Shown: positions 2,416-23,558 of the stretch, piece by piece
Numbering within the stretch: position 1 is the stretch's first letter
Layout of the letters: each line of letters opens with the position of its first letter
Source: an uncultured Kordiimonas sp.
Lineage (GTDB): Bacteria > Pseudomonadota > Alphaproteobacteria > Sphingomonadales > Kordiimonadaceae
Direction of reading: 5' to 3'
NCBI GenBank assembly: GCA_947503575.1
Contig: CANNDZ010000001.1
Span: 1,612,001-1,676,000 of the forward strand
DNA length: 64,000 nt
Position numbers and translations under genes: made by a program
Notes under the pieces: model-generated
The model's database searches: none
What the model was told of the DNA's origin: nothing
The model's input: the letters and a program-made list of their open reading frames with translations, nothing else

Positions 2416-2425
2416 GGTTCAACCC

Positions 2426-2644: not shown

Positions 2645-2655
2645 GAGGTACTGGT

Positions 2656-3629: not shown

Positions 3630-3641
3630 GAGCAAAGGCTC

Positions 3642-7734: not shown

Positions 7735-7735
7735 A

Positions 7736-9109
7736 TTAATCCTTTGTAGCAAACCTGCCGATGCGTTTGTTTTTTTGTCTGTTCAACTCTTTTGCCCATC
7801 CGACCAGGACATCAGCTATTGTAGTATTCCATTGACCGGGAGCGCCTTTAAACGAGGCCTCCATCGAGGGTTGGATTGCATCAAAATGATCTAGCCCAGG
7901 GTGGATATATAGTTCTGCATTAGCGTTGCCCGCCTTCTTCAAGGCATCCATGATCATATGGTTGTCAGCTTCTGACATGATCCAGTCTGAACTGCCCCAC
8001 CGGACACGGACCGGTACAGACAGCGATTGCCAGTTGCCTGCCACGTCAAAGTCCTGAAGCTGATGATAAAACTCGACCGGACGGCCATACATGTGAGCAT
8101 CCTGATGGTAGTTGTAGTCTGCCAGCAGCGGGTATTGGTCAATAACCTCGCGGTAGCTCTTTTTCTGTATCAGCATGCCATAATATAATGGAATGTAGGC
8201 TGTGTTCATCAATTTGTTGACAGTGCTTTCGTCGTTGCCTTCATAGGCCTTTATCCGGCGTTCGATTTCCAGCATGTGCTCAAACCATGTGCGATAGTAG
8301 GTGCCATCTGAAATGACAGCATTCAGGGCGTATTTGTTCGCGAAATAGGGGGCAAGGGCGCTTCCCATGCTGCTGCCGTAAACCAGAATGCGATCGGGGT
8401 CCACGTAGGGCAGACTTTGTAGCTTTTTCAGTGCAGTTTCATAGCCGTTCAGCTCGGTTTGGAAATCGGTTTGGGAACAGTTTCCTTCGCTGTCCCCCAA
8501 GCCAGGCTTCTCGGTGCGCATCATCACCATGCCCGTGTCGGTAACAAGCTGACGCAAGACGCGGATAAAACCTGACGTGCGACCAGGCCAGTATTCAATG
8601 CTGGAACAGCTTAGCCCCTGAAGCACAAAAATTGCGGGTAGTTTTTCAGCACTGGCCGCGGGACGGGTGATAATAACCCGCTGACGAATGCCATAATCGC
8701 TTATAATCTGGTCATAGACTGTATCGATGCCTTCATATGTTTCATGCGGTATGGGGTCAAATACTACATCAATATCAAGTAGTTGATGGTCGCGTCTTAT
8801 GGTCAGCCTGTAGGGGTGGTTGGCGACAAGGGCGTCTGTTAGGTCATCCCAATCTGCGGGTGACAGGATAGCTTTTCCGTCAACACGCAAAAGGCTGTCT
8901 CCGACCCTTAGACCGGCTTCTGCGAGGGTGGCAGTATCAGGTAAGTCAACTAGGCGCATGCCCGCGTCTGTATGAGGTGTGAACCGGGCACCCCACTGCG
9001 CCCTGCGGGCTAGATCGTTTGTCTCCTGCGCGGTGGTATTACCTATTGGGATGAGAGGGCTTGCCAAAACAGCGCATGCCGTTATCAGGTGTTTCATGTT
9101 TGAAATCAT
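7736..9109 (-). CDS. Secreted alpha/beta hydrolase with N-terminal PDZ domain
   Basis: The 457-residue protein starts with a signal peptide (hydrophobic stretch around residues 6-20 ending near TTAQ). A PDZ-like region follows (about residues 30-115, with LRVGDSLLRVDG), then an alpha/beta hydrolase domain with a GSSMG nucleophile elbow near residue 246 and a late Asp/His pair (GLDHFDA). It is probably periplasmic or surface bound and acts as an esterase or peptidase; the substrate cannot be read. A start at ATG 9097 four codons later is equally possible. It is divergent from a membrane LytTR regulator across 114 bases, suggesting regulation by that neighbour. Confidence 0.7.
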   Translation of the reverse strand: MISNMKHLITACAVLASPLIPIGNTTAQETNDLARRAQWGARFTPHTDAGMRLVDLPDTATLAEAGLRVGDSLLRVDGKAILSPADWDDLTDALVANHPYRLTIRRDHQLLDIDVVFDPIPHETYEGIDTVYDQIISDYGIRQRVIITRPAASAEKLPAIFVLQGLSCSSIEYWPGRTSGFIRVLRQLVTDTGMVMMRTEKPGLGDSEGNCSQTDFQTELNGYETALKKLQSLPYVDPDRILVYGSSMGSALAPYFANKYALNAVISDGTYYRTWFEHMLEIERRIKAYEGNDESTVNKLMNTAYIPLYYGMLIQKKSYREVIDQYPLLADYNYHQDAHMYGRPVEFYHQLQDFDVAGNWQSLSVPVRVRWGSSDWIMSEADNHMIMDALKKAGNANAELYIHPGLDHFDAIQPSMEASFKGAPGQWNTTIADVLVGWAKELNRQKNKRIGRFATKD

Positions 9110-9142
9110 TGTGTTGGTATCCCATGCTATATGAAGACTTGG

Positions 9143-9155
9143 CCCCCAGTGGGGG
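9143..9155. promoter_or_regulatory. Perfect GC palindrome in a divergent promoter region
   Basis: A 13-base perfect palindrome (five C, A, central G, T, five G) lies in the 114-base gap between the hydrolase and LytTR genes. It has no T-tract on either side, so it does not look like a terminator. It may be an operator or a 5' UTR hairpin. Confidence 0.3.
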
Positions 9156-9223
9156 AGACGTCATAGTCTGGGAAGATACGGGGGTTTTACAGGGCACTTT
9201 ATGCGAAACAGGCTGTTTTTTAT

Positions 9224-10036
9224 ATGAATGACGGGAATGGCAATGTGGCGGATTTATCGCCCGACGGCGTGCGCAGCAGTTTTTATCTGTTTGGGTCCCG
9301 TGTAATGACACATGTTACTTTTTGGGTTGGTTATTATGTGCTGTTCAGCCTGATTTGGGCTCAGCCAGAGCAAGGATTTCTGGCGTCCTTTTTTCTGGAA
9401 TTTGTGTTGTTGCCGCCCAGAATACTGGCGGTTTATGCGACAATCTATTTTTTGATGCCGACATATTTGTTGCGGCGCGATTTTCTGCGATTTTTCATTG
9501 GATATGCAGTTTTGATCGTTGTCGCTGCCATTATCCAGCGTTTGTCTGGGTATTTCTTTTATGAAACCCTGTTTTTAGGGCGTGACGGCAGCTTGATAAC
9601 GCTCTCTGGCGTTGTGCGCAGCATTGTACTGGTCAATACCACGGTGATCAGTGTGTCTGCGGCCAAACTATTGCAGCATTACTTCGTGGCTGTTGTTGCG
9701 GGTGAGGCGACCGATACGCCTCAACAGGTTGCGGTGCGTGCAGACCGGCGCACGCATATGATTGATCCTGATGATATTTTGTATATCGAAGGTATGGGCA
9801 ACTATGTCACCTATATCCTGAAAGATGGTACCAAGCTGGTGGTCTATGGGTCCATCAAGTCAGCGATCAGTACTTTACCAGAGCAGTTTTTCAGGTTGCA
9901 TCGGTCTTATATCCTTAACCGGCGACATTTGCAGTCATTCAACGCTGAAAATGTGATTGTTGGCGGGCATAGCCTGCCACGCGGCAAGGATGTGCCTGAT
10001 GCCCTGTTACTGGGAGACGAGACGGTGACCGCCTGA
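9224..10036 (+). CDS. Membrane-anchored LytTR-family transcription regulator
   Basis: The 270-residue protein has an N-terminal integral membrane region with four predicted helices (about residues 27-45, 50-75, 85-108 and 120-145) and a C-terminal LytTR DNA-binding domain (about 168-265). The LytTR signature is clear: IDPDDILYIEGMGNYVTYIL, then FFRLHRSYILNRRHLQSF. There is no receiver domain, so signal input must come through the membrane part, as in other membrane-LytTR regulators. It is divergent from the PDZ-hydrolase gene and may control it and itself. Ligand unknown. Confidence 0.85.
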   Translation: MNDGNGNVADLSPDGVRSSFYLFGSRVMTHVTFWVGYYVLFSLIWAQPEQGFLASFFLEFVLLPPRILAVYATIYFLMPTYLLRRDFLRFFIGYAVLIVVAAIIQRLSGYFFYETLFLGRDGSLITLSGVVRSIVLVNTTVISVSAAKLLQHYFVAVVAGEATDTPQQVAVRADRRTHMIDPDDILYIEGMGNYVTYILKDGTKLVVYGSIKSAISTLPEQFFRLHRSYILNRRHLQSFNAENVIVGGHSLPRGKDVPDALLLGDETVTA

Positions 10037-10039
10037 CCG

Positions 10040-10798
10040 CTATAGCTGGAATACCGGGTGTGTTTCCTCCAGGGGGCGTTGGGCAAGACCTGGTGCGTCA
10101 GGCGCGGGCTCAACCTCAAGCGCCATCCGGCGAGGCGTAAGGCCAAACACCTCGTCAAACACCTGTTTCAGCACCACATCCAGGTCATCCATTGTGACGG
10201 GCAAACCAAGGTCTGCAAAGCTGGTAACGCCGTGTTCGGCAATGCCGCATGGTACAATTCCCTGAAAGTGGCTGAGATCAGGCTCCAGATTGATGGCGAT
10301 ACCATGGTAGGTAACCCATTGGCGCACCCGCACGCCGATGGCAGCGATTTTTTCTTCGCGCCCATCTGCGCGGGTAACCCACACACCGACACGGCCATAT
10401 CGGCGTTCTGCACGAATGCCAAAGGCGGCCAAAGACCCGATAATCACTTCTTCCAAACTGAAAACAAACTGGCGGACATCCTTACCGCGTTTTTTCAGGT
10501 CTAGCAGAAAGTACCCGACCCGCTGACCGGGCCCATGATAGGTGTATTCGCCGCCGCGCCCGGCATCGTAAACCGGAAAGCGATCAGGATCGACAAGGTC
10601 TTCGATTTTGGCACTGGTGCCTGCGGTATAAAGCGGCGGGTGCTCCAACAGCCAAACAAGTTCCGGTGCTTCGCCCGCGCGAATTGCTCGCACTCTTTCT
10701 TCCATTTCCGCAAGGGCGGATTGGTAGTCGACAAGTGCGTCACTGATGCGCCACTCAAGAGGGGGCGAAACATCATTTTTTGGAGCTTTTTCTGCCAT
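10040..10798 (-). CDS. lipB: Octanoyl-[acyl-carrier-protein]:protein N-octanoyltransferase
   Basis: The 252-residue enzyme moves octanoyl from ACP to lipoyl domains, the first step of de novo lipoate synthesis. Signatures are [11 protein letters not shown] (residues around 82-92), the catalytic lysine in [11 protein letters not shown] and the catalytic cysteine in GIVPCGI, followed by GVTSFADLG. It is about 25-35 residues longer than E. coli LipB, mostly from an N-terminal extension that is common in alphaproteobacteria. The gene converges on the LytTR gene (three-base gap) and is divergent from the fliN-like gene. lipA is not in the window. Confidence 0.95.
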
Positions 10799-10896
10799 TT
10801 TTGCCGCTTTTTATTCCCTTTTGTGGCGGTTTACTCTCTTTTTAGAGCGTCGCCAAGACCGAAATCGCTGAAAATCGCCTGCAGGCGCCGCTATGG

Positions 10897-10912
10897 TTAA
10901 CGAAAAAATAAC
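10897..10912 (+). promoter_or_regulatory. CtrA-like box upstream of the fliN-like gene
   Basis: The sequence TTAA, seven bases, ATAAC matches the CtrA consensus TTAA-N7-TTAAC with one mismatch. It lies 51 bases before the fliN-like start, a reasonable place for a site overlapping the -35 region. In alphaproteobacteria CtrA activates many flagellar genes. The identification is by eye, and a chance match is possible. Confidence 0.4.
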
Positions 10913-10963
10913 GATGTCGTGCCATGGTAGACTTGAATTTAGCCTCGGTGTAGAGATGGTCGC

Positions 10964-11206
10964 ATGAATGTAGATGCAGTCGGCAGAGTTACAGTTGAAA
11001 TCACCGTCGTCCTTGGACGTACGCAAATGCCGGTGCGCCAGCTCTTGAAAATGGGGCGCGGCGCGGTGATTGATCTTGATGCCAAACATGAAGACGAATG
11101 TTGGATTTACGCCAACGGCGAACTGGTGGCGCGCGGTGAAATCATGATTGTTGGTGAAAAGATCGGTGTGTCGATTACCCGCATGATGAGCCAGCTTCAG
11201 GTTTAA
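10964..11206 (+). CDS. fliN: FliN-like flagellar motor switch protein (SpoA domain)
   Basis: The 80-residue product is essentially one SpoA/FliN C-terminal domain. It shows VTVEITVVLGRTQMPVRQLL followed by a GRGAVIDLD turn, and ends with GEKIGVSITRM, where FliN proteins usually have VRITEI. Such short FliN proteins form part of the C-ring switch together with FliM and FliG. No other flagellar gene lies in the window, so it is an orphan. A CtrA-like box lies upstream. It could alternatively be a short type III secretion C-ring protein, but the sequence is closer to FliN. Confidence 0.85.
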   Translation: MNVDAVGRVTVEITVVLGRTQMPVRQLLKMGRGAVIDLDAKHEDECWIYANGELVARGEIMIVGEKIGVSITRMMSQLQV

Positions 11207-11279
11207 CCACCTGCACCCCAAGTTTCCCAAATTTAGTCTTGCAGCCCATCCGCTTAGCTGATACGAAGTCGCCGGTTCT

Positions 11280-11368
11280 GCGGTCGTGGCGGAATTGGTA
11301 GACGCGCAGCGTTGAGGTCGCTGTGGCTTTAATTAGCCGTGGAAGTTCGAGTCTTCTCGACCGCACCA
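11280..11368 (+). tRNA. tRNA-Leu (anticodon GAG)
   Basis: The acceptor stem GCGGTCG (11280-11286) pairs with CGACCGC (11358-11364), followed by discriminator A and an encoded CCA (11366-11368). The anticodon stem CAGCG/CGCTG encloses the loop TTGAGGT with GAG at 11314-11316, which reads CUC/CUU leucine codons. A long variable arm (GTGGCTTTAATTAGCCGT region) and the GTTCGAGTC T-loop are visible, as expected for a class II tRNA. Confidence 0.95.
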
Positions 11369-11390
11369 AACTCTTTTGAGTTTAACAAAA

Positions 11391-11420
11391 AGGCAATCGT
11401 TTCAAACGGTTGCCTTTTTT
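11391..11420 (+). terminator. Rho-independent terminator of tRNA-Leu
   Basis: An 11-base-pair stem with one T.G wobble (11391-11401 with 11405-11415) and a three-base loop is followed by a run of six T. It lies 23 bases after the tRNA CCA end. Confidence 0.9.
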
Positions 11421-11534
11421 GTATTGTGCCAGGAAAACTCGCCCGCGACCCCGCATCCGATTGTGCATAAACCCTCTTACTCCCGTGGTGATTATCCTCT
11501 ATATAGTTACTGGGGAAACTAAATGAGGGTATCC

Positions 11535-11954
11535 ATGTCTGCTATTGTACATCTAGCCATTCCAGCTGGCGATCTTGAAACAACTGTGAAGTTTTATACT
11601 GAAGTCTTCGGTTGCACCCTCGGAAACAGCGAAGCAGGGCGCTGGGTTGATGTTAATTTTTGGGGCAATGAGCTGACACTTCACCAAAGTGAAGAACAGC
11701 TTCCCAATGTGCGTCACGATGTTGATATGGGTGCGGTGCTGGTCCCTCATTTCGGTGTCCACCTGACTCAGGAAGATTTTGATGCCCTCAAAGACCGTAT
11801 CGCGGCAGCGGGGCTAAGCTATATTGATGAGCCCTATCGTCGTTTTGCGGGCGATAAATATGAGCAAGAAACCTTTTTTATCGCTGACCCGAACAACAAT
11901 ATCCTTGAGATCAAGACAATGAAAAACCCAGAGGTTTTGTTCCCCGCCCTTTGA
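11535..11954 (+). CDS. VOC (glyoxalase/dioxygenase) superfamily protein
   Basis: The 139-residue protein has the VOC fold pattern: HLAIPAGDLETTVKFYTEVFG at the start and a closing segment FFIADPNNNILEIK that carries the usual metal glutamate. A first metal histidine is in HLAIP and another candidate is FGVHLT. It resembles single-domain VOC proteins of unknown substrate rather than canonical GloA. I prefer ATG 11535, which has a GAGGG site five bases upstream, over ATG 11523. It follows the tRNA terminator, and converges on dgoA. Confidence 0.8.
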   Translation: MSAIVHLAIPAGDLETTVKFYTEVFGCTLGNSEAGRWVDVNFWGNELTLHQSEEQLPNVRHDVDMGAVLVPHFGVHLTQEDFDALKDRIAAAGLSYIDEPYRRFAGDKYEQETFFIADPNNNILEIKTMKNPEVLFPAL

Positions 11955-12002
11955 TCGTGTTGGCGGACTGTGCTTTGTCTTCGTTGGTCTGTTAGCCGCT
12001 GC

Positions 12003-12626
12003 CTAATTGTATAAGTCGCGCACAGTTTTTACGTAGTTTTGCGCAATTAATGCAACCTCGCTTGCGGTCATGCCCGGCTTATAAAGGTTGCTGCCCAGGC
12101 CAAAGCCGTCCGCCCCGGCATCCTTAAATGACTGCAGGGTGTTTAGGTCAACGCCGCCAACGGCAAACACGGGCACACCCGGCGGGAGAACCGCTTTAAG
12201 CGCCCCCATGGTACTCACGCCGGCTGCACCTGCCGGGAACAGTTTTAGTGCATCAGCCCCCGCCTCAATGGCGGCGAAAGCCTCCGTTGCTGTTGCAAAG
12301 CCGGGAGCCGACAAAAGCCCTAATTCCTTGGTGCGCCGGATCACATCGGTATTGGTATTGGGGGAGACAATCAGCGTGCCGCCTGCTGCTGCAACGTCTT
12401 CTGCATCCTTTGGTGTTAATACGGTGCCAGCACCAATCGTGGCTTCGCCGCCAAAGGCATCTTGAAGCATGCCAATAGATTGAAGCGGCGACGGGGAATT
12501 CAGCGGAACTTCAATGGTTGTTATACCAGCATCCAGTATCGCTTGCCCAATTCCAATGACTTCTGTTGGTGTAACCCCCCGCAGGATGGAGATCAGGCGC
12601 GAATTCGCTAATGCATTTTCTGTCAT
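12003..12626 (-). CDS. dgoA: 2-dehydro-3-deoxy-6-phosphogalactonate aldolase
   Basis: The 207-residue class I aldolase splits KDPGal into pyruvate and glyceraldehyde-3-phosphate, the last step of De Ley-Doudoroff galactose breakdown. Features: LISILRGVTP, the catalytic-Glu segment TIEVPLNSP typical of the galacto-specific branch, IGAGTVLTP, the Schiff-base lysine in LKLFPA, and the C-terminal GLGSNLYKPGMT block that matches E. coli DgoA closely. KDPG aldolase (Eda) is the alternative, but this C terminus and the neighbours favour DgoA. An AGGGA ribosome site precedes the ATG. It is divergent from glpD, with a palindrome between them. Confidence 0.9.
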   Translation of the reverse strand: MTENALANSRLISILRGVTPTEVIGIGQAILDAGITTIEVPLNSPSPLQSIGMLQDAFGGEATIGAGTVLTPKDAEDVAAAGGTLIVSPNTNTDVIRRTKELGLLSAPGFATATEAFAAIEAGADALKLFPAGAAGVSTMGALKAVLPPGVPVFAVGGVDLNTLQSFKDAGADGFGLGSNLYKPGMTASEVALIAQNYVKTVRDLYN

Positions 12627-12691
12627 CTATATTTCCCTGTATGCTCTCGTTATCGGTGCAGAAATTAGCGAAGGTTTCACCCTGTCATAAT

Positions 12692-12707
12692 TATCATATA
12701 AATGATA
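12692..12707. promoter_or_regulatory. Candidate island operator, site 1 (dgoA/glpD)
   Basis: A perfect inverted repeat TATCAT-ATAA-ATGATA lies in the 148-base region between the divergent dgoA and glpD starts. Near-copies occur in the other two divergent promoter regions of the galactoside island (around 17758 and 21789). The repeated placement suggests binding by one regulator, perhaps the FadR-type protein encoded at 20073-20786. This is inference. Confidence 0.5.
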
Positions 12708-12774
12708 GTTAGGCATCAGTACAGGTGGCTATACGGTCTTGGTCACAGCAACTGGTTATATGCGAAAGAAGCAA

Positions 12775-14286
12775 ATGCGCCAAACCACAGACATGTTCAT
12801 TATCGGCGGTGGCATCAACGGTGTTGGTGTCGCGCGCGATGCCGCCGGACGCGGGCTAAGTGTAACGCTGGTCGAGCAGGGGGACCTTGCCGGGGCTACG
12901 TCTTCAGCAAGTTCAAAGTTGGTTCATGGCGGTTTGCGCTATCTTGAAAATTATGAATTCGGGTTGGTGCGAGAGTCGTTAATGGAACGAGAGAGGCTTT
13001 GGAAAATTGCCCCTAACATCATCACACCGCTGCGGTTTGTCTTACCGCACCATAAGGGCTTGCGCCCTGCCTTTATCCTGCGTCTGGGTCTGTTCCTGTA
13101 TGACCATATTGGTGGACGCAAGCTGCTACCCCCCACAAAGCGGTTAAACTTGCGCAAACATGCCGTGGGCGAAGGCCTGGCGGATAAGTTTGGGGTTGGG
13201 TTTGAATATTCTGACTGTTGGGTCGATGATGCAAGGCTGGTGGTATTGAATGCCATGGGCGCGCAGGAATTGGGCGCTGATATCCTAACCCGCCATACTT
13301 TTCTGAATGCCAGACGTGAGAGCGGAAAATGGCTGGTTTCCGTTAAATCAGATGCGGGCGATATCCAAGAAATTACGGCTTCCATCCTTGTAAATGCTGC
13401 GGGCCCTTGGGTTGATAAAACCCTGGCGGGCTGCGATGGAAGGCAGCAAAACAAGGGGTCAGTGCGCCTTGTGAAGGGCAGCCACATCGTTGTACCAAAA
13501 TTGTTTGATCATGACCGGGCCTACACATTTCAGAACGCAGATGGCCGTGTGGTTTTCGCGATCCCTTACGAGCAGGATTACACGTTGGTCGGAACAACGG
13601 ATACGCCTTTTGAAGGTGATCCCTACAGTGCGACCGCAGATGATGCCGAAGTTGAGTATTTATGCACGGCCGTGTCGGAGTATTTTGCACAGCCCATCAC
13701 ATCCGATCAGGTGGCTTGGCATTATTCAGGCGTGCGCCCCTTATATGATGATGGTGCGGAAAGCGCCTCCAAAGCAACACGGGACTATGTTCTGGACTTG
13801 GATGCGCCGAATAGCGATGCGCCGATACTAAGTATTTATGGTGGTAAAGTAACCACATACCGCCGTCTGGCGGAAGAAGTTCTGGAGAAACTAGAGCCCT
13901 ATGCAGCCTTTGATAAAGGACCCTGGACAGACGGCGCGCCACTACCGGGTGGTGACCTGCCGGGCCGGGAAAAGCCGGGCGAGGCGCTAACCGATTTTAT
14001 CGCCCACGTGATATCTGCCTATCCGTGGCTGGATACACTGCTCGCAACAAGGCTGGCATGCGCATACGGCACGCGGGTGCATGTCCTGTTAGATGGTGTG
14101 CAGTCGCTTGCAGACATGGGGCGTGACTTTGGCGCGGGATTGTTTGAACGCGAAGTCAGGTACCTGCAAGAACATGAATGGGCGCGCACGGCAGAGGATA
14201 TCCTGTGGCGGCGCACCAAACGCGGTTTGCATATGACCGCTGCTGAGCGGGACGCCTTTGCGAATTGGCTCGGTCAAGCGGGTTAA
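12775..14286 (+). CDS. glpD: FAD-dependent glycerol-3-phosphate dehydrogenase
   Basis: The 503-residue flavoprotein oxidises sn-glycerol-3-phosphate to dihydroxyacetone phosphate and feeds electrons to quinone at the inner membrane. It shows the FAD-binding FIIGGGINGVGVARDAAGRG, the SSKLVHGGLRYLE segment, LVNAAGPWVD and the C-terminal GGKVTTYRRLAEEVLE block, with the family's usual length. I chose ATG 12775 because GlpD homologues begin a few residues before the nucleotide-binding strand; in-frame ATGs at 12739 and 12760 exist. The gene lies inside a galactoside island and shares a divergent promoter with dgoA, which is unexpected for plain galactose use. No glpK, glpF or glpR is visible. Confidence 0.93.
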   Translation: MRQTTDMFIIGGGINGVGVARDAAGRGLSVTLVEQGDLAGATSSASSKLVHGGLRYLENYEFGLVRESLMERERLWKIAPNIITPLRFVLPHHKGLRPAFILRLGLFLYDHIGGRKLLPPTKRLNLRKHAVGEGLADKFGVGFEYSDCWVDDARLVVLNAMGAQELGADILTRHTFLNARRESGKWLVSVKSDAGDIQEITASILVNAAGPWVDKTLAGCDGRQQNKGSVRLVKGSHIVVPKLFDHDRAYTFQNADGRVVFAIPYEQDYTLVGTTDTPFEGDPYSATADDAEVEYLCTAVSEYFAQPITSDQVAWHYSGVRPLYDDGAESASKATRDYVLDLDAPNSDAPILSIYGGKVTTYRRLAEEVLEKLEPYAAFDKGPWTDGAPLPGGDLPGREKPGEALTDFIAHVISAYPWLDTLLATRLACAYGTRVHVLLDGVQSLADMGRDFGAGLFEREVRYLQEHEWARTAEDILWRRTKRGLHMTAAERDAFANWLGQAG

Positions 14287-14291
14287 TTACC

Positions 14292-15722
14292 TTAAACCTG
14301 CGGCTTTAAGCCGATGTAAGCTGCCCGTCTGCCAAACACAACCGAGTTCACGACAAGAGCGGTTATCACGCAGAAAATCAGCGTCACAAACATCAAATGG
14401 ATATAATGCAAGGGCGCCCATGTGAAGGTGAACAAGCCGTATAATGCGGTACCGGAGACAACAGCAATAATCATGGCGCGAGGGTCAACACCCTTAAACA
14501 TCAGACCAACAAGGAAAGTGGACAATATAGGCATGCTGAGCAAGCCATAGAGTTCTTGCACGGTATTGATGATGCTGTCAGCTTGTTGGTACATCGGCAC
14601 CAGCGCCAGCGCCAGCCCAACAAACACGACCGTCACCCAGCCACTCAGTTTTTTGACATCGGGTGTGTCGTTGAAATATTTTTCGTGGATATCCATGACA
14701 TAGAGCGCGGTTGACGAGTTGAGGATACTGTTAAAGCTGGTTAGCACCGCAGCCGCAATTGCGGCGGCAAACGCACCCGAAAGCCACACCGGTAATACAT
14801 CACTGACAATCCGGCCATAGGCGGCATCGCCAATATCGCCGTAAAGCTTGTAGGATACGATACCGGGCAGCACGATCATGGGTGGCACGATCAAAAGCCG
14901 GATGCCTGCTGCGGCAAACACGCCTTTTTGTGCTTCTTTGAGGGTGGGTGACGCCATGGCGCGCTGGGTAATGGTTTGGTTGGTGCTCCAGTAAAAAACC
15001 TGGATAAACAACATACCTGTCAGCAAGGTATGCCAGGGGATCGGGCTGTCATTTGCGCCGATCAGGGTTAGGCGTTCTGTCGGCACGCCGGTGAAATCAA
15101 AGTCAATGGCTTGAAGCGCCAGAAATACTACCAGCATACCCAGGCCCAATAGCAGAACGCCGCTGTAGGTGTCAGATACTGCGACAGCGCGCAGGCCGCC
15201 AAATACAGCGTAGCCAGCACCGATAATGGCAAACAGCGACGCCAACACCATGATGGAAACATCAATTCCGAACATGGATTGCATAAAGAGCGACCCGCCA
15301 TACAACATCGCTGGCAAAAAGATGAAGATGTTACCCAGCAGAAACATGACTGACACGGTCGCCCGGATATGGTGGTCGTTGTATCGCTTTTCCAACAGCT
15401 CGGTCGTTGTGGTGCAGTTGTTGCGGTAATAAACCGGCAAAAACACCTTCGCGAGGATGAAAAGCCCGGCGACAGCGGCAAATTCCCACCAAGCCAGCAA
15501 GGCCATCTGGTTGCCATTCATGCCGACCAATTGGTCAGTACTAAGGTTGGTCAGGGTTATCGACCCCGCGACAAAAACCCATGACAGGCCACCACCGGCC
15601 AGAAAATAGTCTTTGTTTGAGTCAGCGCTGGCGCGCGTGCCGCGACATTTCAGATAGGTTGCCAGGGCAATAAGGGCGGTGAAACCAAGAAAAACAACAA
15701 CTTGAAGCGTTTGCAATTCCAT
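14292..15722 (-). CDS. Sodium/solute symporter, SSS family (likely galactoside importer)
   Basis: The 476-residue protein has about 13 hydrophobic helices and SSS-family features: the DYFLAGGGLSWVFVAGS segment in TM1, LAWWEFAAV, and FYWSTNQTITQRAMAS, which matches the (W/Y)xxxxQxxxQR signature of the SGLT-like branch. It therefore probably couples sodium to uptake of a sugar or galactoside across the inner membrane. It is downstream of the GH42 gene by 21 bases in one operon, and converges on glpD with a five-base gap. Both hydrolases next to it lack signal peptides, so this transporter most likely brings intact small galactosides into the cell. Confidence 0.85.
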   Translation of the reverse strand: MELQTLQVVVFLGFTALIALATYLKCRGTRASADSNKDYFLAGGGLSWVFVAGSITLTNLSTDQLVGMNGNQMALLAWWEFAAVAGLFILAKVFLPVYYRNNCTTTTELLEKRYNDHHIRATVSVMFLLGNIFIFLPAMLYGGSLFMQSMFGIDVSIMVLASLFAIIGAGYAVFGGLRAVAVSDTYSGVLLLGLGMLVVFLALQAIDFDFTGVPTERLTLIGANDSPIPWHTLLTGMLFIQVFYWSTNQTITQRAMASPTLKEAQKGVFAAAGIRLLIVPPMIVLPGIVSYKLYGDIGDAAYGRIVSDVLPVWLSGAFAAAIAAAVLTSFNSILNSSTALYVMDIHEKYFNDTPDVKKLSGWVTVVFVGLALALVPMYQQADSIINTVQELYGLLSMPILSTFLVGLMFKGVDPRAMIIAVVSGTALYGLFTFTWAPLHYIHLMFVTLIFCVITALVVNSVVFGRRAAYIGLKPQV

Positions 15723-15743
15723 GTTTGATCCTTCCGGTGTGCC

Positions 15744-17717
15744 TTATTGCCCGCTAGCGGCGATACGCCAAACGCAGATGTCTCTGGCATTTACTTTTTG
15801 AGTGCCCATCACAAACTCTGTATCGGCAGGAAGAGGGACCTTTTGCGGTTGATCCGCATAGTTGAACACAAACCCATACTTACCGCGCCGAACAATACGC
15901 ATGTCATCCGGCAGTGTCATGGTGGTAATCCCGATGTTGCCGCATATCCTTTTAAAAAAGTCCTGCAAAAAGGCATCACTGGTCAGCGTACCGATATAGG
16001 TGATGCTGTCTTGGCTCGCGATCGCGGGTTCACCGCCCGCATATGATACAATGGCTTTGGTCTCGGGGCCAATTGCCAGTTCCTCGCACCAGGACATGAC
16101 CTCGTATTCGTTTGCGCCCCACATAAGCGGTTCCGCGCAATCCGGGCGCAGGGTTTCGACCGACAAAATTTTAATATCGATCAGATCTTGCAGCAGGCCG
16201 GGTGCAAGTGTTTCGGGGATGCTGAAGTCATGCGTTTTGGACCCACTGCGTGGACCAAAAACAAAGTGTGCCCTGGATGCCTTGCAGCGCACGATAAAGT
16301 CAGCATCTATAATAGGCAGGCAAGGCGCGATAACCAGGTTGTAGTCGTCAAAGTCAGCGTCTTTGCTAATGAAATCCACATCCAGCCCAAGCCTGCGCAG
16401 CGCTGAATAGTAGGCAAACTCAACCTTTGTGAACTTATACCCTGCGCCCTGTTGTTCGATGTCAGAGACCCACAAAGCCTGCACGTCGGTGATGATCGCA
16501 ACTGCAGCGGGGGCTTTGGGCTCGTTTGTAATTTCCAGCGCGTCTAATTCATGCCGAACCTGTTCAACTTCCGCCCAGGCGGTAGCGGGGCTGTTGTCAC
16601 GGCGTTTTAGGCCTGCGTGCATTTGTTCCTGGGCAAAAGGCACCTGCCGCCAGCGGAAGTAGCTGACGCAGTCTGCACCGTGGGCAAAAGCTTCCAACGA
16701 CCAGAACCGCACCATGCCGGGGGCTGGGCGTGGGTTATGGGGTGCCCAGTTCACGGGGCCCGGCTGTTGCTCCATAACCCAGTAAGGGCCGCCTGCGAAA
16801 CTGCGGGTGGTGTCATGATAAAAGCTGGCGAAGTCAGGGTGGCCGGTACGCATGTAGCGGCGCATCACGTCTGGTTGGGCATCGGCGAATGCCATGTCAG
16901 ACCGACCCAGTGGGTAATTGTCATACGACGCGATATCGAGGTCTTGTCCGATGGCATAGGGATCAGTGTACAGGTCTTCTTTCGGGATAAAATTGTGCGT
17001 GATCCATTTGCCTGGTGCATGACGCCTGATCACTTTCACCATTTCTGTGTGAAAGTGTTTCACCATGTCGGATGCATAACGCCGAAACGCAAGTTGATGT
17101 GCGGGGCTGGTTTCGGTGACAGCACCAAAGGGCAATTCTATTGCGTCGAACGAGGTATATTCCATTGACCAGAATATGGTGCCCCAGGCGGTATTCAGTG
17201 CGTCGATGGAGCCGTATTCATTTGCGCACCATTGCTGGAAACCGCGCCGTGCATTGTCAGACCCGCTCAGGGCCGTGTCATGACAGCATAGTTCATTATC
17301 CGTTTGCCACCCGACAATAGCATCGTGGGTGCCGTAGCGTTTTGCCAAAACCTCTGAAATGCGCAAAGCTTCCTGCAAATAAACACCGCTTGAAAAGTCA
17401 TAATGACGGCGGGAGCCAAACCCCTTTGTAATGCCGGTTTCCGGATCAGCAGGCAGAATGTCAGGATGTTCATCGATCAACCATTTTGGGGGGGTTGCGG
17501 TCGGCGTGCCAAAAACAATTTTAAGCCCGGCTTCTGCAAGTATTTCAATGCTGTTGTCCAGCCATGCGAACTGGAACTGATTACGGCTGGGTTCAATGCG
17601 GGACCAGGCAAATTCGCCGATACGCACATAATCTAGGCCCAGCGCGCGCATTTCTGCCGCATCCTGCCGCCACATATGCTCCGGCCAGTGCTCTGGATAA
17701 TAGCAGACGCCCAGCAT
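15744..17717 (-). CDS. Beta-galactosidase, GH42
   Basis: The 657-residue enzyme hydrolyses terminal beta-galactosides by a retaining mechanism. The N terminus GVCYYPEHWPEHMWRQD is diagnostic for GH42. The acid/base Glu is at about residue 142 (TDNELCCHD) and the nucleophile Glu at about 316 (YWVMEQQPG). The trimerisation domain and a short C-terminal beta domain follow. Length fits the family (650-700). There is no signal peptide, so it acts in the cytoplasm. It is the first gene of the GH42-symporter operon and is divergent from the GH36 gene. GH42 enzymes often take short galacto-oligosaccharides rather than lactose. Confidence 0.93.
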   Translation of the reverse strand: MLGVCYYPEHWPEHMWRQDAAEMRALGLDYVRIGEFAWSRIEPSRNQFQFAWLDNSIEILAEAGLKIVFGTPTATPPKWLIDEHPDILPADPETGITKGFGSRRHYDFSSGVYLQEALRISEVLAKRYGTHDAIVGWQTDNELCCHDTALSGSDNARRGFQQWCANEYGSIDALNTAWGTIFWSMEYTSFDAIELPFGAVTETSPAHQLAFRRYASDMVKHFHTEMVKVIRRHAPGKWITHNFIPKEDLYTDPYAIGQDLDIASYDNYPLGRSDMAFADAQPDVMRRYMRTGHPDFASFYHDTTRSFAGGPYWVMEQQPGPVNWAPHNPRPAPGMVRFWSLEAFAHGADCVSYFRWRQVPFAQEQMHAGLKRRDNSPATAWAEVEQVRHELDALEITNEPKAPAAVAIITDVQALWVSDIEQQGAGYKFTKVEFAYYSALRRLGLDVDFISKDADFDDYNLVIAPCLPIIDADFIVRCKASRAHFVFGPRSGSKTHDFSIPETLAPGLLQDLIDIKILSVETLRPDCAEPLMWGANEYEVMSWCEELAIGPETKAIVSYAGGEPAIASQDSITYIGTLTSDAFLQDFFKRICGNIGITTMTLPDDMRIVRRGKYGFVFNYADQPQKVPLPADTEFVMGTQKVNARDICVWRIAASGQ

Positions 17718-17757
17718 AGTTTCCCCTGTGGCTAAACGGCGCTTACGGGCCGCTAAA

Positions 17758-17775
17758 TATATTATTTATATGACT
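17758..17775. promoter_or_regulatory. Candidate island operator, site 2 (GH42/GH36)
   Basis: On the minus strand this reads AGTCATATAAATAATA, which matches site 1 (TATCATATAAATGATA) at 13 of 15 core positions. It lies 41-58 bases upstream of the GH42 start in the 213-base gap between the two glycosidase genes, a plausible operator position. Confidence 0.45.
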
Positions 17776-17828
17776 ATTGTCTCCCGATGCTAAGCTAGTA
17801 TCATGCCTTGCGCTGGTCAACTAGAGCC

Positions 17829-17846
17829 GTACAAATTATGTTGTAC
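17829..17846. promoter_or_regulatory. Inverted repeat GTACAA-N6-TTGTAC
   Basis: A perfect six-base inverted repeat with a six-base spacer lies about 85 bases upstream of the GH36 start. I do not find it in the other two divergent regions of the island. It may serve a second regulator. Confidence 0.35.
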
Positions 17847-17930
17847 CAAACGGTAATGGGTTGGTCAGTGATTTGAAACCGCTGACCCTATGACCGCGAT
17901 GCAATAACAAGCGCAAAGGATCGAACGCAT

Positions 17931-20054
17931 ATGGCCCCTTCCGCGCAATCTATCATTTCATTTACCGGCGTAGCGTCCTGTTTTGTAGCGCGATTGCGCA
18001 CTGATGGCTTGGTTGTGACCTATTGGGGGCCCAGGTTGGATGAGATAGAGCCTGAAGTGATTGATTCTCTTGGCCGCCGAACCCCTGCAATTGGAACGCC
18101 TTCTGTTGAAGTGCCAACAGCCATGTGCCCGACGATTGCATCTGGGTTTATTGGTTCACCCGGGATTGAACTGCACAAGGACGGCGGCGCGTGGGATTTT
18201 CACCCCGATGAGAGCGAATGCCTGGAGGTAAACGAGGCAGAGGCAACATTTAGGTTTACTGACACCCGGCACGGCCTTGTTTTGATGGCAGAGTTGCTAT
18301 GGTGCGCTGAAACTGACGTTTTAAAAGTGCGGCATAGCGTTGAAAATGGAGCGGACGGGATAGTGACGCTGAATGCATGTGCGTCAGCTACGCTGCCTGT
18401 GCCCGCTTCAGCCAACATGATCAGCCGTTTTGGAGGGCGTTGGGCACTGGAATTCCAACAATCAACCTTCGCGCTGGAAGCGGGGGCGTTTGTACAGGAA
18501 AATCGGCGTGGCCGGACCTCCCATGCCAGCTTTCCAGCACTTTTGCTGCATTCTGCGACAACGACCGAAAGCCAGGGCGTCGTTTACGGCTTTCACCTTG
18601 GTTGGAGTGGTAACCACATAATGCGGGTTGAACGTCTGAACGATGGGCGCGCCTACGCCCAATTGGGCGACCGTCTATTGCCCGGCGAAATACGGCTGGC
18701 TAAGGGGGAGCGATACCAGACACCATGGCTGTATGCAGCTTTTTCCGGCAGTGGTTTTAGCAGCCTATCGCAGTCTTTCCATCGTTTCGCTTGGGAACAC
18801 GTGCTTCGGCCATCGACGCGACAAAAACCGCGGCCTGTTCACTACAACACCTGGGAAGCGATTTATTTTGATCATGACCAAGGCAAGCTGATCGAACTCG
18901 CTAGCCGGGCAGCGGCGCTGGGCGTGGAGAGGTTTGTTTTGGATGATGGCTGGTTTCTGGGGCGGCGGCATGATGCGGCCGGACTTGGTGACTGGTATGT
19001 TGACCCGCAGGTGTACCCCCAGGGCCTGACGCCGCTTATTGATCATGTCCTTGCGCTGGGCATGGACTTTGGCTTATGGGTTGAGCCGGAAATGGTAAAC
19101 CCTGATAGTGATTTATACCGCGCGCATCCGGACTGGGTATTGTCGGCTGAGGGTATTGAGCAAATACCGTCGCGCAATCAATTGGTGCTGGACCTGACAC
19201 GGGATGAAGTTTGGGCTTATGTGTTTGAGCGGCTGGATGACCTGTTGGCACATCATGCGATCAGCTACCTCAAATGGGATATGAACCGCGATATTCACCA
19301 TACGGGCAGCGGCGGCGCAGCATGCGCTCATGCGCAAACGCGCGCTGTCTATAGCTTGATGGACGCCGTGCGAGCGAAGCACCCCCATGTTGAGATTGAA
19401 AGCTGTTCATCGGGTGGTGCACGCGCAGATTTTGGGGCTTTGTCGCATACCGACCGGGTATGGACATCCGACAGTAATGATGCGCTGGACAGGCAGGCAA
19501 TCCAACGGGGTGCATCTTTCTTTCTGCCAAGCGATGTGATGGGAGCGCATGTGGGGCCACGTGTCTGCCATATCACAGAGCGCGAATTGCCGATGTCGCT
19601 CAGGGCAGCGACGGCGCTATTTGGTCATATGGGCCTTGAAATGGACCTGACCGAGCTGACCGAGGAGGAAGCTGAAACCCTGAAAGTGGCCATTGCGCTC
19701 CATAAACGCCACCGTGCACTCATCCATGGCGGCAATCTTGTTCGGTTGGATGGCCCGGCATACAGCAACAGCTTAGGTATTGTTTCAGAGGATGGCAGCG
19801 CTGCGCTCTTCTCCTACGCTCAAACCGGAACCCGGCAAGACACAACGCCGACAGTATTAACAGTCAAAGGGTTGGACCCTGGCGCAAAGTATTTTTTGGA
19901 TATCGTTTGGCCGACAAGTGATGAGCTTGTCGATTTGAGCGCACTGGGGCAGTTGAAAGGGCAGGCAATAAGCGGGCAAGCGCTGATGCAGCTGGGGCTG
20001 CAGTTGCCGCCAATGATGCCGCACGCCGCAGTGATCTTGCACTTGCAGGCGTAA
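17931..20054 (+). CDS. Alpha-galactosidase, GH36
   Basis: The 707-residue enzyme removes terminal alpha-galactosyl groups. An N-terminal beta-sandwich (about residues 1-300) precedes a (beta/alpha)8 barrel. Family motifs are RPVHYNTWEAIYFD, FVLDDGWF, GLWVEPEMVN, the nucleophile in YLKWDMNRD (Asp 450), ESCSSGGARAD and the acid/base in WTSDSNDALDR (Asp 514). The C-terminal beta domain completes the usual length. No signal peptide is visible, so it acts in the cytoplasm on imported substrate. It is divergent from the GH42 gene and is followed by the convergent regulator gene. Raffinose-type sugars, melibiose and alpha-galactosyl-glycerols are all possible substrates. Confidence 0.94.
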   Translation: MAPSAQSIISFTGVASCFVARLRTDGLVVTYWGPRLDEIEPEVIDSLGRRTPAIGTPSVEVPTAMCPTIASGFIGSPGIELHKDGGAWDFHPDESECLEVNEAEATFRFTDTRHGLVLMAELLWCAETDVLKVRHSVENGADGIVTLNACASATLPVPASANMISRFGGRWALEFQQSTFALEAGAFVQENRRGRTSHASFPALLLHSATTTESQGVVYGFHLGWSGNHIMRVERLNDGRAYAQLGDRLLPGEIRLAKGERYQTPWLYAAFSGSGFSSLSQSFHRFAWEHVLRPSTRQKPRPVHYNTWEAIYFDHDQGKLIELASRAAALGVERFVLDDGWFLGRRHDAAGLGDWYVDPQVYPQGLTPLIDHVLALGMDFGLWVEPEMVNPDSDLYRAHPDWVLSAEGIEQIPSRNQLVLDLTRDEVWAYVFERLDDLLAHHAISYLKWDMNRDIHHTGSGGAACAHAQTRAVYSLMDAVRAKHPHVEIESCSSGGARADFGALSHTDRVWTSDSNDALDRQAIQRGASFFLPSDVMGAHVGPRVCHITERELPMSLRAATALFGHMGLEMDLTELTEEEAETLKVAIALHKRHRALIHGGNLVRLDGPAYSNSLGIVSEDGSAALFSYAQTGTRQDTTPTVLTVKGLDPGAKYFLDIVWPTSDELVDLSALGQLKGQAISGQALMQLGLQLPPMMPHAAVILHLQA

Positions 20055-20072
20055 CACCCGAAAGCAAGACCA

Positions 20073-20786
20073 TCATTCGCCGCTGGCTTCCGCTTTGGCA
20101 CGTTGTATCAGCTCGTAGGCTTCTTCAATCAAGGTTTTGCTTTTTGCCTCGGCTGCGTCTGCATCACCTTGATGGATGGCCTGATAAATAGCCGTATGAT
20201 CTGCCACGCTTGCGAGCGCGACGCCCTTATACTGGTTGGTCAGGCGGATACTGATGCGCAGCGCAGTTTCAACAAGGTCGCGCAACTGCATAAAAAAGCG
20301 ATTGTTGCTGGCTTCCAGGATCGCAACATGGAACGCAATATCTGACGACAACGCATCATCTTCGCCGCGCTCGGCGGCGCGCATATGCTCCAGCGCGTTG
20401 GCGATGGCTGCTTTTTGGTCCTTGGTTGCGCGCAATGCGGCAAAGGCCGCTGCTTTGGGCTCAATCGCGGCGCGGACCTCGGTAAAATCCGCCAGCAAGT
20501 CGATGGAAAACTTGCGATCGAGCAGCCAACGCAAGACGTCAGGGTCCATCAGGTTCCAGAATTCTTCCGGTTGGACCCATGTGCCCTGGCGTGGGCGAGC
20601 GCGCAAAAGTCCTTTGGATGTTAGCATTTTCACCGCTTCTCTAAGCACGCTGCGACTCACGCCAAACTGATCACATAAATCAGCCTCTATGGGGAAGGGG
20701 TTATCCTTATTGTATTGGCCACGGACGATGGCTTGCCCCAGATCGTTGACGATTTGTTGTGTCAGACTTTGTGATGCAACTACCAT
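20073..20786 (-). CDS. GntR-family regulator, FadR subfamily (FCD domain)
   Basis: The 237-residue protein has an N-terminal winged helix-turn-helix (DQFGVSRSVLREAVKMLTSK, about residues 38-57, then the wing GLLRARPRQGTWV) and an all-helical FCD ligand domain with the metal-site pattern DIAFHVAILEAS and later DHTAIYQAI. Such regulators of sugar-acid pathways usually bind an intermediate such as galactonate or KDGal, like DgoR of E. coli. It starts one base after the SMP-30 gene stop, so the two are co-transcribed. It is the natural candidate to bind the palindromes of the island, but that link is inferred. Confidence 0.9.
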   Translation of the reverse strand: MVVASQSLTQQIVNDLGQAIVRGQYNKDNPFPIEADLCDQFGVSRSVLREAVKMLTSKGLLRARPRQGTWVQPEEFWNLMDPDVLRWLLDRKFSIDLLADFTEVRAAIEPKAAAFAALRATKDQKAAIANALEHMRAAERGEDDALSSDIAFHVAILEASNNRFFMQLRDLVETALRISIRLTNQYKGVALASVADHTAIYQAIHQGDADAAEAKSKTLIEEAYELIQRAKAEASGE

Positions 20787-20787
20787 T

Positions 20788-21702
20788 TCACTGATCTTGC
20801 TTCAGGGCAGGCAGGACACCTGCATAGGTGTTTTCGGGCAGGCCCTGGGCATTAGTTTCAAAGATGAAAACATTCCCAGCACCAGGTTGGGTCAATCGTT
20901 CATCTGCACCAAGGCCGTCGCACGCCGATGAGACATAAAGCCAGTTCAGGTCCTCCCCACCAAAGGCAACGCATGTAGGTTGGCTGACAGGAACGTCAAC
21001 GCTACCAATCACGTTGCCATTGGGCGCATACACCAGAATTTTACCAAGACCCCATTGGGCGCTCCAAACGTTGCCATCGGCATCAACCGCGGCACCATCA
21101 GGCACACCGCCTTTTGGCGAGCGTGCAAACACACGCTTGCCAGACGCCAGACCTGTATCAACATTGAAATCATAGGCATAAATGCTGCCTGTGGGCGAAT
21201 CAGCAAAATACATGCGATCACCAGACGGGCTCCAGCATAAGCCGTTGGAGATTGTCACGTTCGTTTCCTGCACACTGATGGTCTGTTTTGTATCGAGGCA
21301 AAACAACCGCCCAGTAAGGGGTACATTGTCGGTCGGGTTTTCCATCATGGTCCCAGACCAAAACCGCCCGTTACGATCAATGCGGCCATCGTTAAATCGG
21401 CCTTCTCCATCCAGGAACGTCGGGCGGTGCAACCATGTCAGTGCGCCGGTTGTCAGGTTAAATGTGGCAAAACCAGTGGCGAAGGCGGCTAATATGGTGT
21501 CTTTTTGAGACGTAAATGCAAACGAACCCAACGGTTCGGGCATATCCAGAATGTCCAGGCTGCCAGTATGCGGGTCATAATGATACAGCTTGCTGGATAG
21601 AATATCCGTCCACCATAGTGTTTGGTCAGAATGTCGCCACTGAATGCCTTCACCCAACAGGTTTGCAACAGATAATTCACCGATCTGTTTCGCGTGTATC
21701 AC
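20788..21702 (-). CDS. SMP-30/gluconolaconase-family lactonase (probable galactonolactonase)
   Basis: The 304-residue six-bladed beta-propeller opens the sugar lactone made by the neighbouring dehydrogenase. Metal-binding positions are in LGEGIQWR (Glu), TISNGLCWSP (Asn) and an Asp in YFADSPTGSIYAYD. VPDGAAVDADGNVW is another family landmark. I chose GTG 21702 because homologues begin close to this point; an in-frame ATG at 21822 would add 40 residues with no family counterpart and would run into the palindrome region. It is the first gene of an operon with the GntR regulator and is divergent from the SDR gene. Substrate is assigned from context. Confidence 0.85.
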   Translation of the reverse strand: MIHAKQIGELSVANLLGEGIQWRHSDQTLWWTDILSSKLYHYDPHTGSLDILDMPEPLGSFAFTSQKDTILAAFATGFATFNLTTGALTWLHRPTFLDGEGRFNDGRIDRNGRFWSGTMMENPTDNVPLTGRLFCLDTKQTISVQETNVTISNGLCWSPSGDRMYFADSPTGSIYAYDFNVDTGLASGKRVFARSPKGGVPDGAAVDADGNVWSAQWGLGKILVYAPNGNVIGSVDVPVSQPTCVAFGGEDLNWLYVSSACDGLGADERLTQPGAGNVFIFETNAQGLPENTYAGVLPALKQDQ

Positions 21703-21788
21703 TGAAATACCATGCCTTGAATTGCGTGTTTCACGTCCTGGTATTGGGCTACTAACTGTCTGCCTATCAGGACCTTGTTGATTATTAT

Positions 21789-21802
21789 TATGATATATAT
21801 GA
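21789..21802. promoter_or_regulatory. Candidate island operator, site 3 (lactonase/dehydrogenase)
   Basis: On the minus strand this reads TCATATATATCATA, which matches the site 1 core TCATATAAATGATA at 12 of 14 positions. It lies in the 192-base gap between the divergent lactonase and dehydrogenase genes, 93 bases before the dehydrogenase start. The right half-site ATGAT is intact and the left one is imperfect. Confidence 0.42.
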
Positions 21803-21894
21803 TTAAATGACCTAAACAGCAATTATCTGGCACCCTGCTTAAGGCCGAATGGGTGATAATGGTTGTTGCAGGCGTTTCAATTCCGGGGTTTTGA

Positions 21895-22656
21895 ATGACA
21901 TATCCATCATATGCTGACCTGTCTGGTAAAACTGTGTTTGTTACCGGTGGTGGGTCTGGTATCGGGGCAGCCTTTGTTGCCGCTTTTGCTGCACAAGGGG
22001 CGAATGTTGCCTTTGTCTCTTTATCAGAAGAACCGGCGCATGCGGTATGTGACGGCGTAGAGCAAAATACCGGAATGCGGCCTTTATTTGTTCCCTGCGA
22101 TGTACGCGATGGTGAGGCAGTGAATGCTGCAATTCAGCAAGCGCGGGAAACTTATGGCCCAGTCTCTGTACTTATTAACAATGCCGCGCGGGATGATCGC
22201 CATACCATTGACGATTATAGCGTTGAAGCGTGGGACAATTCTCTTGCGACGAATTTGCGTCCACATTTTTTTACCGTACAGTCCTGTCTTGATGATTTAA
22301 AAGCGACACGCGGCAGCATAATCAACCTTGGTTCCAACTCAGCGATTCTTGGGCTTGCGGGCTATGCGTCTTACGTCACAGCGAAAGCGGGTATCGTTGG
22401 CCTGACCAAGGCGTTGGCCCGTGAATTGGGGCCGGACGGTGTTCGTGCAAATGTCCTGGTGCCGGGTTGGGTATTGACGGAACGTCAAAAAACACTGTGG
22501 GCCACGCCAGAAACGATTGAGCAGTGTTTGCATGAACAATCCCTGAAACGGACGATTTCTGAAGAAGATATTGCTAATGCTGCGCTGTTTCTGGCATCGG
22601 ACGCATCAGCCATGATGACAGGTCAGTCATTAATTGTTGATGGTGGGCGCGTTTAG
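21895..22656 (+). CDS. SDR-family dehydrogenase, probable galactose 1-dehydrogenase
   Basis: The 253-residue classical short-chain dehydrogenase has the cofactor loop TGGGSGIGAAF (residues 17-27), LINNAARDD, the catalytic serine in NLGSNSAIL and the YASYVTAKAG active-site Tyr/Lys pair. The C terminus DGGRV is typical. With lactonase, DgoK and DgoA next door the simplest role is NAD(P)-dependent oxidation of galactose to galactonolactone. Specificity for fucose or arabinose, which share stereochemistry with galactose, cannot be excluded. Its last base overlaps the first base of dgoK. Confidence 0.85.
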   Translation: MTYPSYADLSGKTVFVTGGGSGIGAAFVAAFAAQGANVAFVSLSEEPAHAVCDGVEQNTGMRPLFVPCDVRDGEAVNAAIQQARETYGPVSVLINNAARDDRHTIDDYSVEAWDNSLATNLRPHFFTVQSCLDDLKATRGSIINLGSNSAILGLAGYASYVTAKAGIVGLTKALARELGPDGVRANVLVPGWVLTERQKTLWATPETIEQCLHEQSLKRTISEEDIANAALFLASDASAMMTGQSLIVDGGRV

Positions 22657-23558
22657 TGCCGGGGAGCCATCAGATTGTTGTTGATTGGGGGTCCAGCTCG
22701 TTTCGGGCGTTCCTATTGGGCCAAAATTTCGAGGTGCTGGAAACAGCACGGTCGGATGATGGTGTCATAAGCTTGCAAGGCCGGTGTTTTTACTCCGTAT
22801 TGATGGACCACTGCGATCGGTGGATCAAGCACTATGGCAAAATGCCTATCGTTTTGGGTGGTACAATCGGCAGCCGCAATGGGTGGCGGCAGACGCCGTA
22901 TTTGCCATGCCCGGCATCAACGTATGACATAAAGCAGCACATGCTTTCTGTGGATAACGAATCCGACCTTGATATCCGCATTTTACCGGGGGTCCAGGCC
23001 CAAAACGCATATGGAAACCGCGATGTTATGCGCGGTGAAGAAGTGCAGATATTTGGTGCCTTAGATATAATAGGTGCCGAAAATGCGGCAGTCTGCTTGC
23101 CCGGCACTCATAGCAAATGGTGCAGCGCCGCACAGGGTAAGATCACATCAATAACCACTTATCTTACCGGCGAGTTGTTTGCAGTGTTGCGTGATCACAG
23201 CTCGGTTGGTTTGGTGATGCTAGGTGCGGAGTTCGACGAGCAGAGTTTCTGCTGTGGTCTGGATGCGGCAGCCTTAGCTGAGCCTGTTCTGCAGCAACTA
23301 TTCGCTGTACGGGCTGCATCACTTGTTGATCAGCCTCTTGCTGCGGACAACGCCAGTTATGTGTCCGGGCTCCTGATCGGGCATGAGGTAAACTCAATCG
23401 CGCAAATAGGGGCCGTTGATAGCCCTTTGATTGTGGTTGGTAGCGACACGCTTAATGCTCGATACCAGTTGGCTTTTTCGCGGCGTCAGGTTGAAACGAC
23501 TGTTGTACCGGCAGACGCTGCTTTTCTGCGCGGAATGCAGTTAATTTTGTCCTCTTAA
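22656..23558 (+). CDS. dgoK: 2-dehydro-3-deoxygalactonokinase
   Basis: The 300-residue kinase phosphorylates KDGal to KDPGal, the substrate of DgoA. It carries the ASKHA-fold phosphate loop VDWGSSSFRAFLL near the N terminus, GTIGSRNGWRQTPY, and GTHSKW, all typical of DgoK. Length matches the family (about 290-300). The start is GTG 22656, overlapping the dehydrogenase stop by one base, so translation is coupled. It closes the island; the next gene, mgtE, is 132 bases away and unrelated. Confidence 0.92.
   Translation: MPGSHQIVVDWGSSSFRAFLLGQNFEVLETARSDDGVISLQGRCFYSVLMDHCDRWIKHYGKMPIVLGGTIGSRNGWRQTPYLPCPASTYDIKQHMLSVDNESDLDIRILPGVQAQNAYGNRDVMRGEEVQIFGALDIIGAENAAVCLPGTHSKWCSAAQGKITSITTYLTGELFAVLRDHSSVGLVMLGAEFDEQSFCCGLDAAALAEPVLQQLFAVRAASLVDQPLAADNASYVSGLLIGHEVNSIAQIGAVDSPLIVVGSDTLNARYQLAFSRRQVETTVVPADAAFLRGMQLILSS

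Follow-up and report, generated by a model that had tools for sequence, protein, structure and literature searches.

A conserved glpD in a Kordiimonas galactoside island suggests use of galactose-glycerol compounds

Why does a gene for aerobic glycerol-3-phosphate dehydrogenase, glpD, stand among galactoside genes? The question is raised by positions 12003–23558 of the window, by which we mean the whole 64,000-nucleotide stretch analysed here (G000:C1:1612001-1676000), part of the 3.6 Mb genome of a marine Kordiimonas (G000). glpD is conserved with this island and lies beside a putative control site, which suggests that the bacterium uses compounds of galactose and glycerol. We judge, with a probability of about 70%, that the genes of the island act as one unit in breaking down galactosyl-glycerols. 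For Kordiimonas, the likeliest substrates are mono- and digalactosyl-glycerol, the head groups of galactolipids made by algae or cyanobacteria. An initial annotation had proposed galactosyl-glycerol use, preferring the head group digalactosyl-glycerol; the linkage of glpD, the conserved sites and neighbours of glpK and GlpR type support that proposal, and make such compounds the probable substrate.

glpD, its neighbours and the shared sites

The genes of the island follow the order dgoA (-), glpD (+), SSS symporter (-), GH42 (-), GH36 (+), gntR (-), lactonase (-), SDR dehydrogenase (+) and dgoK (+). All of their reading frames are uninterrupted, and together with family profile scores this confirms the gene set that had been annotated, comprising dgoA, glpD, the symporter, GH42, GH36 and De Ley-Doudoroff enzymes. 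As had also been stated, glpD (12739–14286) sits between dgoA (12003–12626) and the symporter gene (14292–15722). Its product scores 727 bits against an equivalog cut-off of 360 and aligns with E. coli GlpD (2QCU) over residues 15–511 with an E-value of 9e-147; by inspection, an ATG at 12760 or 12775 is a likelier start than the called one.

The gene-order comparison set beforehand by the initial annotation covered 20 stretches, namely 17 glpD loci of relatives, taken from the best GlpD matches, and three stretches from G000. glpD stays with the island: it adjoins dgoA in 8 of the 17 relatives' loci, including those of G040, from another family, and G022, from another genus. The symporter is also present in seven of these eight, and the run reaches dgoK in five, some runs being truncated where the stretch ends. 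The remaining nine loci are without island genes, save for a single 29% symporter match in L042; one of these belongs to G014 and holds its second GlpD, the first being an island gene. In a GlpD tree, the nine island copies, from Kordiimonas, G040 and G022, group in a single clade (SH-aLRT 95); the GlpDs of Kordiimonas without an island fall outside it, as does the second copy in G014. In G014, the GH36 and GH42 frames of the island are interrupted (L035 3008-7335), reflecting either draft error or decay.

Comparison of conserved sites revealed three related elements in the island. Site 1, the palindrome TATCATATAAATGATA, lies between dgoA and glpD (12692–12707); Site 2, TCATATAAATAATA, between GH42 and GH36 (17760–17773, minus strand); and Site 3, TCATATATATCATA, between the lactonase and SDR genes (21789–21802, minus strand). 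Their core, TCATATAWATNATA, recurs in all nine dgoA-glpD regions examined from islands of Kordiimonas, G040 and G022 (with one mismatch in G014), between GH42 and GH36 in all seven islands holding both (one mismatch in G040), and between lactonase and SDR genes in six of six. The whole G000 genome contains exactly three exact matches to TCATATAWATNNTA, at the three island promoters. Across eight Kordiimonas genomes there are 23 matches, 20 of them in island stretches (including G010:C64 and G015:C23) and three elsewhere, one of these on the island contig of G018, 40 kb away; a reversed-pattern control gave four matches. In G040, a TonB-dependent receptor gene is inserted between symporter and glpD (L038 5699-8647), with a one-mismatch site upstream. 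Outside this type, L063 carries only two-mismatch sites (before its TonB receptor gene and between GH36 and GH42) and the site is not present in L058, L160, L054 or L056, so it is confined to the island type of Kordiimonas, G040 and G022. The gntR gene (20073–20786; Pfam GntR-FCD) encodes a regulator that likely reads the three sites, and the island is probably a GntR regulon. Promoter and terminator scans gave results at chance level only.

Two GH36 classes across the order

The GH36 alpha-galactosidase (17931–20054) has Pfam support, including a Melibiase domain, and retains the KWDMNR and SDxxDA motifs in alignment with the solved alpha-galactosidases AgaB and AgaA; the GH42 beta-galactosidase (15744–17717; Pfam GH42) likewise retains TDNE and MEQQPG when aligned with the solved enzyme 1KWG. 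All four motifs have catalytic roles. By inspection, no signal peptide is apparent at either N-terminus, consistent with the annotated cytosolic location of both enzymes.

We searched 296 genomes of the order, which we take to be Sphingomonadales in the GTDB sense, and found GH36 in 82 and the symporter in 75 at the threshold used. glpD, glpK and GH42 were then sought in 80 genomes, made up of the 82 with GH36 and three with the symporter only (G010, G015 and G024), minus the five with the weakest GH36 (G131, G216, G232, G248 and G289), all from the low-scoring class. Linkage was counted in the 77 of these 80 genomes that have a GH36 match, divided 44 to 33 at a gap in bit score from 603 to 490; G014, in which GH36 is broken in two, was assigned to the high class by hand.

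In the class to which the GH36 of the window belongs, glpD or glpK lies within 15 kb in 35 of 44 genomes (28 with glpD, 8 with glpK, G070 having both), spread over 12 of 15 genera. In the other class the count is 0 of 33 within 15 kb and 2 of 33 within 20 kb; random placement would give about 2% per genome. Of the 77 GH36 sequences, 36, chosen with linkage already known, were placed in a tree, which separates 24 sequences, 22 of them linked to glpD, glpK or glpR, from 12 with none linked, at 100/100 support.

Gene order around the linked GH36 varies. The L058 cluster brings together esterase, dgoA, glpK, SSS, GH36, glpD, GH42, dehydratase, SDR, dgoK and gntR. In L054 to L057, SSS and GH36 are divergent, with GH36 followed by glpD, galT and galK; L066 has GH36, glpR and glpD, and in L059 and L067 the symporter is followed by glpK. 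Regulators of GlpR type, matching just below the cut-off, adjoin GH36 in L061, L066 and L072. Seven genomes from two genera (g40 and g41) have glpK, and not glpD, beside GH36 and the symporter. The clustering of glp genes with GH36 recurs in differing gene orders and alongside two galactose routes, which speaks for a function rather than a frozen accident.

Two Kordiimonas islands, those of G010 (L201/L202) and G015 (L200 1-6433), lack GH36: gntR, lactonase, SDR and dgoK come immediately after GH42, and no GH36 match was found elsewhere in these drafts, which are 83% and 90% complete, respectively. GH42 is present in all eight readable Kordiimonas islands. G010 retains glpD and also the esterase described below, a combination with beta-galactosidase that would suit beta-galactosyl-glycerol, the head group of monogalactosyl lipid; adding GH36 would extend use to digalactosyl-glycerol.

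A second locus with glpK and an esterase

Glycerol kinase had been expected to be encoded outside the island, and the only FGGY kinase match in the genome is indeed a glpK on contig C3. This locus (L051 8034-12915) holds genes for a LysR regulator, GlpK, SapC and an exported-looking esterase, an order kept in seven Kordiimonas genomes together with an RND pump and HlyD. The 1038-residue protein adjoining the esterase was considered as a TonB receptor; this identity was rejected, as it is the RND pump. In all seven Kordiimonas with the esterase, its gene starts within 2.6 kb of glpK and is divergent from the SapC gene. Export is suggested by inspection of N-termini, and a GYSMG motif is found in all four esterase sequences checked. 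The L058 and L063 clusters encode alpha/beta-hydrolases of this kind, of PETase/PAF-acetylhydrolase type, with 42% mutual identity.

Homologues of the esterase occur in 29 of the 80 genomes. Within Kordiimonas, 7 of 19 genomes have one; these are the same seven that carry an island glpD, and none of the 11 genomes without an island has it. No esterase was found in G015, in which the glpK contig stops 233 bases before SapC, beyond which the esterase would lie; with G015 counted against the association, Fisher's test gives p = 1.6e-4, uncorrected for kinship. Near GH36, the esterase is encoded in three clusters outside Kordiimonas (G054, G294 and G070), which also contain GH42. An exported esterase linked to glpK is an argument from the lipid side that goes beyond the initial annotation, and suggests that the galactosyl-glycerol could derive from lipids.

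Candidate pathway and competing explanations

Together, these genes could form the following pathway. The exported esterase, encoded beside glpK at the second locus, would strip acyl chains from galactolipids. The symporter, related to vSGLT (Pfam SSS; it aligns with the sodium/glucose cotransporter 2XQ2, which we take to be vSGLT), would take up galactosyl-glycerol, from which GH36 would cleave alpha-galactose and GH42 beta-galactose in the cytosol. Galactose would then pass to pyruvate and glyceraldehyde-3-phosphate through an SDR sugar 1-dehydrogenase, a lactonase, a dehydratase, DgoK and DgoA, and the released glycerol to dihydroxyacetone phosphate through GlpK from the other locus and GlpD. 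The broader proposal is a dedicated galactolipid head-group pathway, with a galactolipase-like exported esterase, import of intact galactosyl-glycerol, both galactosidases and separate galactose and glycerol branches, occurring across Sphingomonadales as modular clusters that pair one GH36 clade with glpD, glpK or both; we put this forward tentatively, at slightly under even odds.

Apart from the dehydratase, each step of the galactose branch has a candidate gene in the island. The De Ley-Doudoroff aldolase, for 2-dehydro-3-deoxy-6-phosphogalactonate (KDPGal; dgoA, NCBIfam PRK09140, 263 bits against a cut-off of 207, and Pfam Aldolase), and the 2-keto-3-deoxy-galactonokinase (dgoK, 22656–23558; Pfam DGOK, 2e-82) are both present by profile scores. 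The lactonase, an SMP-30/gluconolactonase-like protein (20788–21822; Pfam SGL, 1.5e-76), has a frame over-extended by mechanical calling, and inspection favours a GTG at about 21702 as its start. The SDR protein (21895–22656; Pfam SDR) is a candidate galactose dehydrogenase, its best NCBIfam match being D-xylose 1-dehydrogenase at 267 bits, below the cut-off of 400. Some relatives do carry a dehydratase gene: in G017, G040 and G022 an IlvD/Edd-type gene directly follows dgoA, and G070 has one within its cluster.

Several results weigh against galactosyl-glycerol catabolism as the role of the island. glpD runs divergently from dgoA and converges on the symporter gene, so it is not co-transcribed with the sugar genes; Site 1 may serve dgoA alone. 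Being the only GlpD match in G000, the island copy must also serve general glycerol use. A galactonate dehydratase, sought in G000 as IlvD/Edd and MR_MLE types, was not found, the searches returning only IlvD, Edd, two DgcA-like racemases and enolase, and the island in the window contains no gene for outer-membrane entry. Linkage of GH36 to glpD or glpK is missing from 9 of the 44 genomes of its class, some perhaps owing to contig breaks. As for the esterase, its closest PDB match (E-value 5e-8) places it far from solved lipases and esterases, in 18 of the 29 genomes that have it none of the five genes is linked to it, and no homologue was found in G040 or G022, both of which have an island glpD. 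Finally, the SapC-esterase interval yielded no conserved site in any of the seven Kordiimonas; at this locus, matches beside the LysR gene are exact in L154, carry one mismatch in L155 and two mismatches elsewhere.

The true substrate could instead be a red-algal alpha-galactosyl-glycerol osmolyte, floridoside or isofloridoside, for which GH36 and GlpD would suffice, with GH42 handling a different beta-galactoside that shares the uptake and galactose steps. Many related clusters combine symporter, GH36, glpD, galT and galK with neither GH42 nor the esterase close by. Floridoside would require no more than this set, and such clusters of other genera would suit it; moreover, an excerpt of PMC8509150 describes a characterised bacterial GH36 that forms isofloridoside in reverse from galactose and glycerol. 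For the Kordiimonas island we nevertheless regard this substrate as doubtful. It requires neither GH42, kept in every readable island there, nor the esterase linked to glpK, and the esterase-GH36 clusters of the three other genomes hold GH42 as well; the G010 and G015 islands, being without GH36, weaken it further.

That glpD is a housekeeping gene placed by chance beside a plain galactoside island and carried along would agree with its being the sole copy in the genome, with its own orientation and with a Site 1 belonging only to dgoA. The association recurs, however, in varied layouts (glpD by dgoA, by the symporter or after GH36, and glpK after the symporter) in most genera of the GH36 class, and G014, G054 and G225 have a second GlpD elsewhere. 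Of 80 named glpD loci, most of them from outside the order, only two have a GH36 match nearby, as against 40 with glpK-like and 43 with glpR-like genes. Given synteny, trees and this background, hitch-hiking is quite unlikely. The two exceptions are a Pontixanthobacter locus, from the same genome as G251, and L149 of Shimia biformata (Rhodobacterales), in which GH36, an IlvD-type dehydratase and an SDR gene stand beside an ABC ATPase, a solute-binding protein, IclR, glpD and glpK (310–12957), possibly an independent galactosyl-glycerol cluster in that order. Still less probable, to a degree that makes it remote, is an island for melibiose, raffinose or lactose-type sugars in which GlpD acts with GpsA as a redox partner, delivering electrons to the respiratory chain while galactose is oxidised. 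Galactosides in general would suit GH36, GH42 and the symporter, and the other GH36 clade of the order occurs with GH42, symporter and often galT/galK, with no glycerol genes in the stretches read; but this leaves unexplained both the glpK genes that accompany GH36 and the symporter in g40 and g41 without glpD (G070 having both) and the GlpR-type regulators beside GH36.

Related systems and a further hydrolase

Worldwide, few membrane lipids are as abundant as galactolipids. De Ley-Doudoroff galactose clusters contain genes of SDR dehydrogenase, lactonase, DgoK and DgoA types, which the island shares; unlike them, it also includes glpD and a pair of cytosolic galactosidase genes, with a common set of conserved sites, and lacks a detectable galactonate dehydratase in G000. 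Clusters of GH36, GH42 and SSS in the same order (for example L070, L071 and L073) have the same enzyme and symporter families, but their GH36 belongs to the other clade, in which none of the 12 tree loci has glpD, glpK or glpR within the 10–20 kb read. The glp clusters of other Proteobacteria, mostly Alphaproteobacteria, share GlpD with the island and, as counted above, usually neighbour glpK- or glpR-like genes, whereas the island glpD adjoins galactoside genes and the regulator is GntR-FCD, not GlpR.

According to an excerpt of PMC8333865, Egel proposed in 1979 that the lac operon exists for the use of galactosyl-glycerols of galactolipid origin. The E. coli lac operon so understood resembles the island in its cytosolic beta-galactosidase and sugar symporter; the island differs in pairing alpha- with beta-galactosidase and in its genetically linked glycerol enzyme. 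A locus joining both galactosidases to glycerol catabolism would give this old proposal on galactosidase operons a concrete system and, if true, galactosyl-glycerol use would be predictable in marine genomes from the GH36 clade and its glp neighbours. Among the papers listed by searches of the open-access literature, none described a bacterial gene cluster for use of galactosyl-glycerol or galactolipid head groups, most subscription papers being outside the scope of the search.

Near the island, the window also encodes an exported-looking alpha/beta-hydrolase with a PDZ-like N-terminal part (7736–9109); it also occurs near the island of G006, together with lipB and a LytTR gene.

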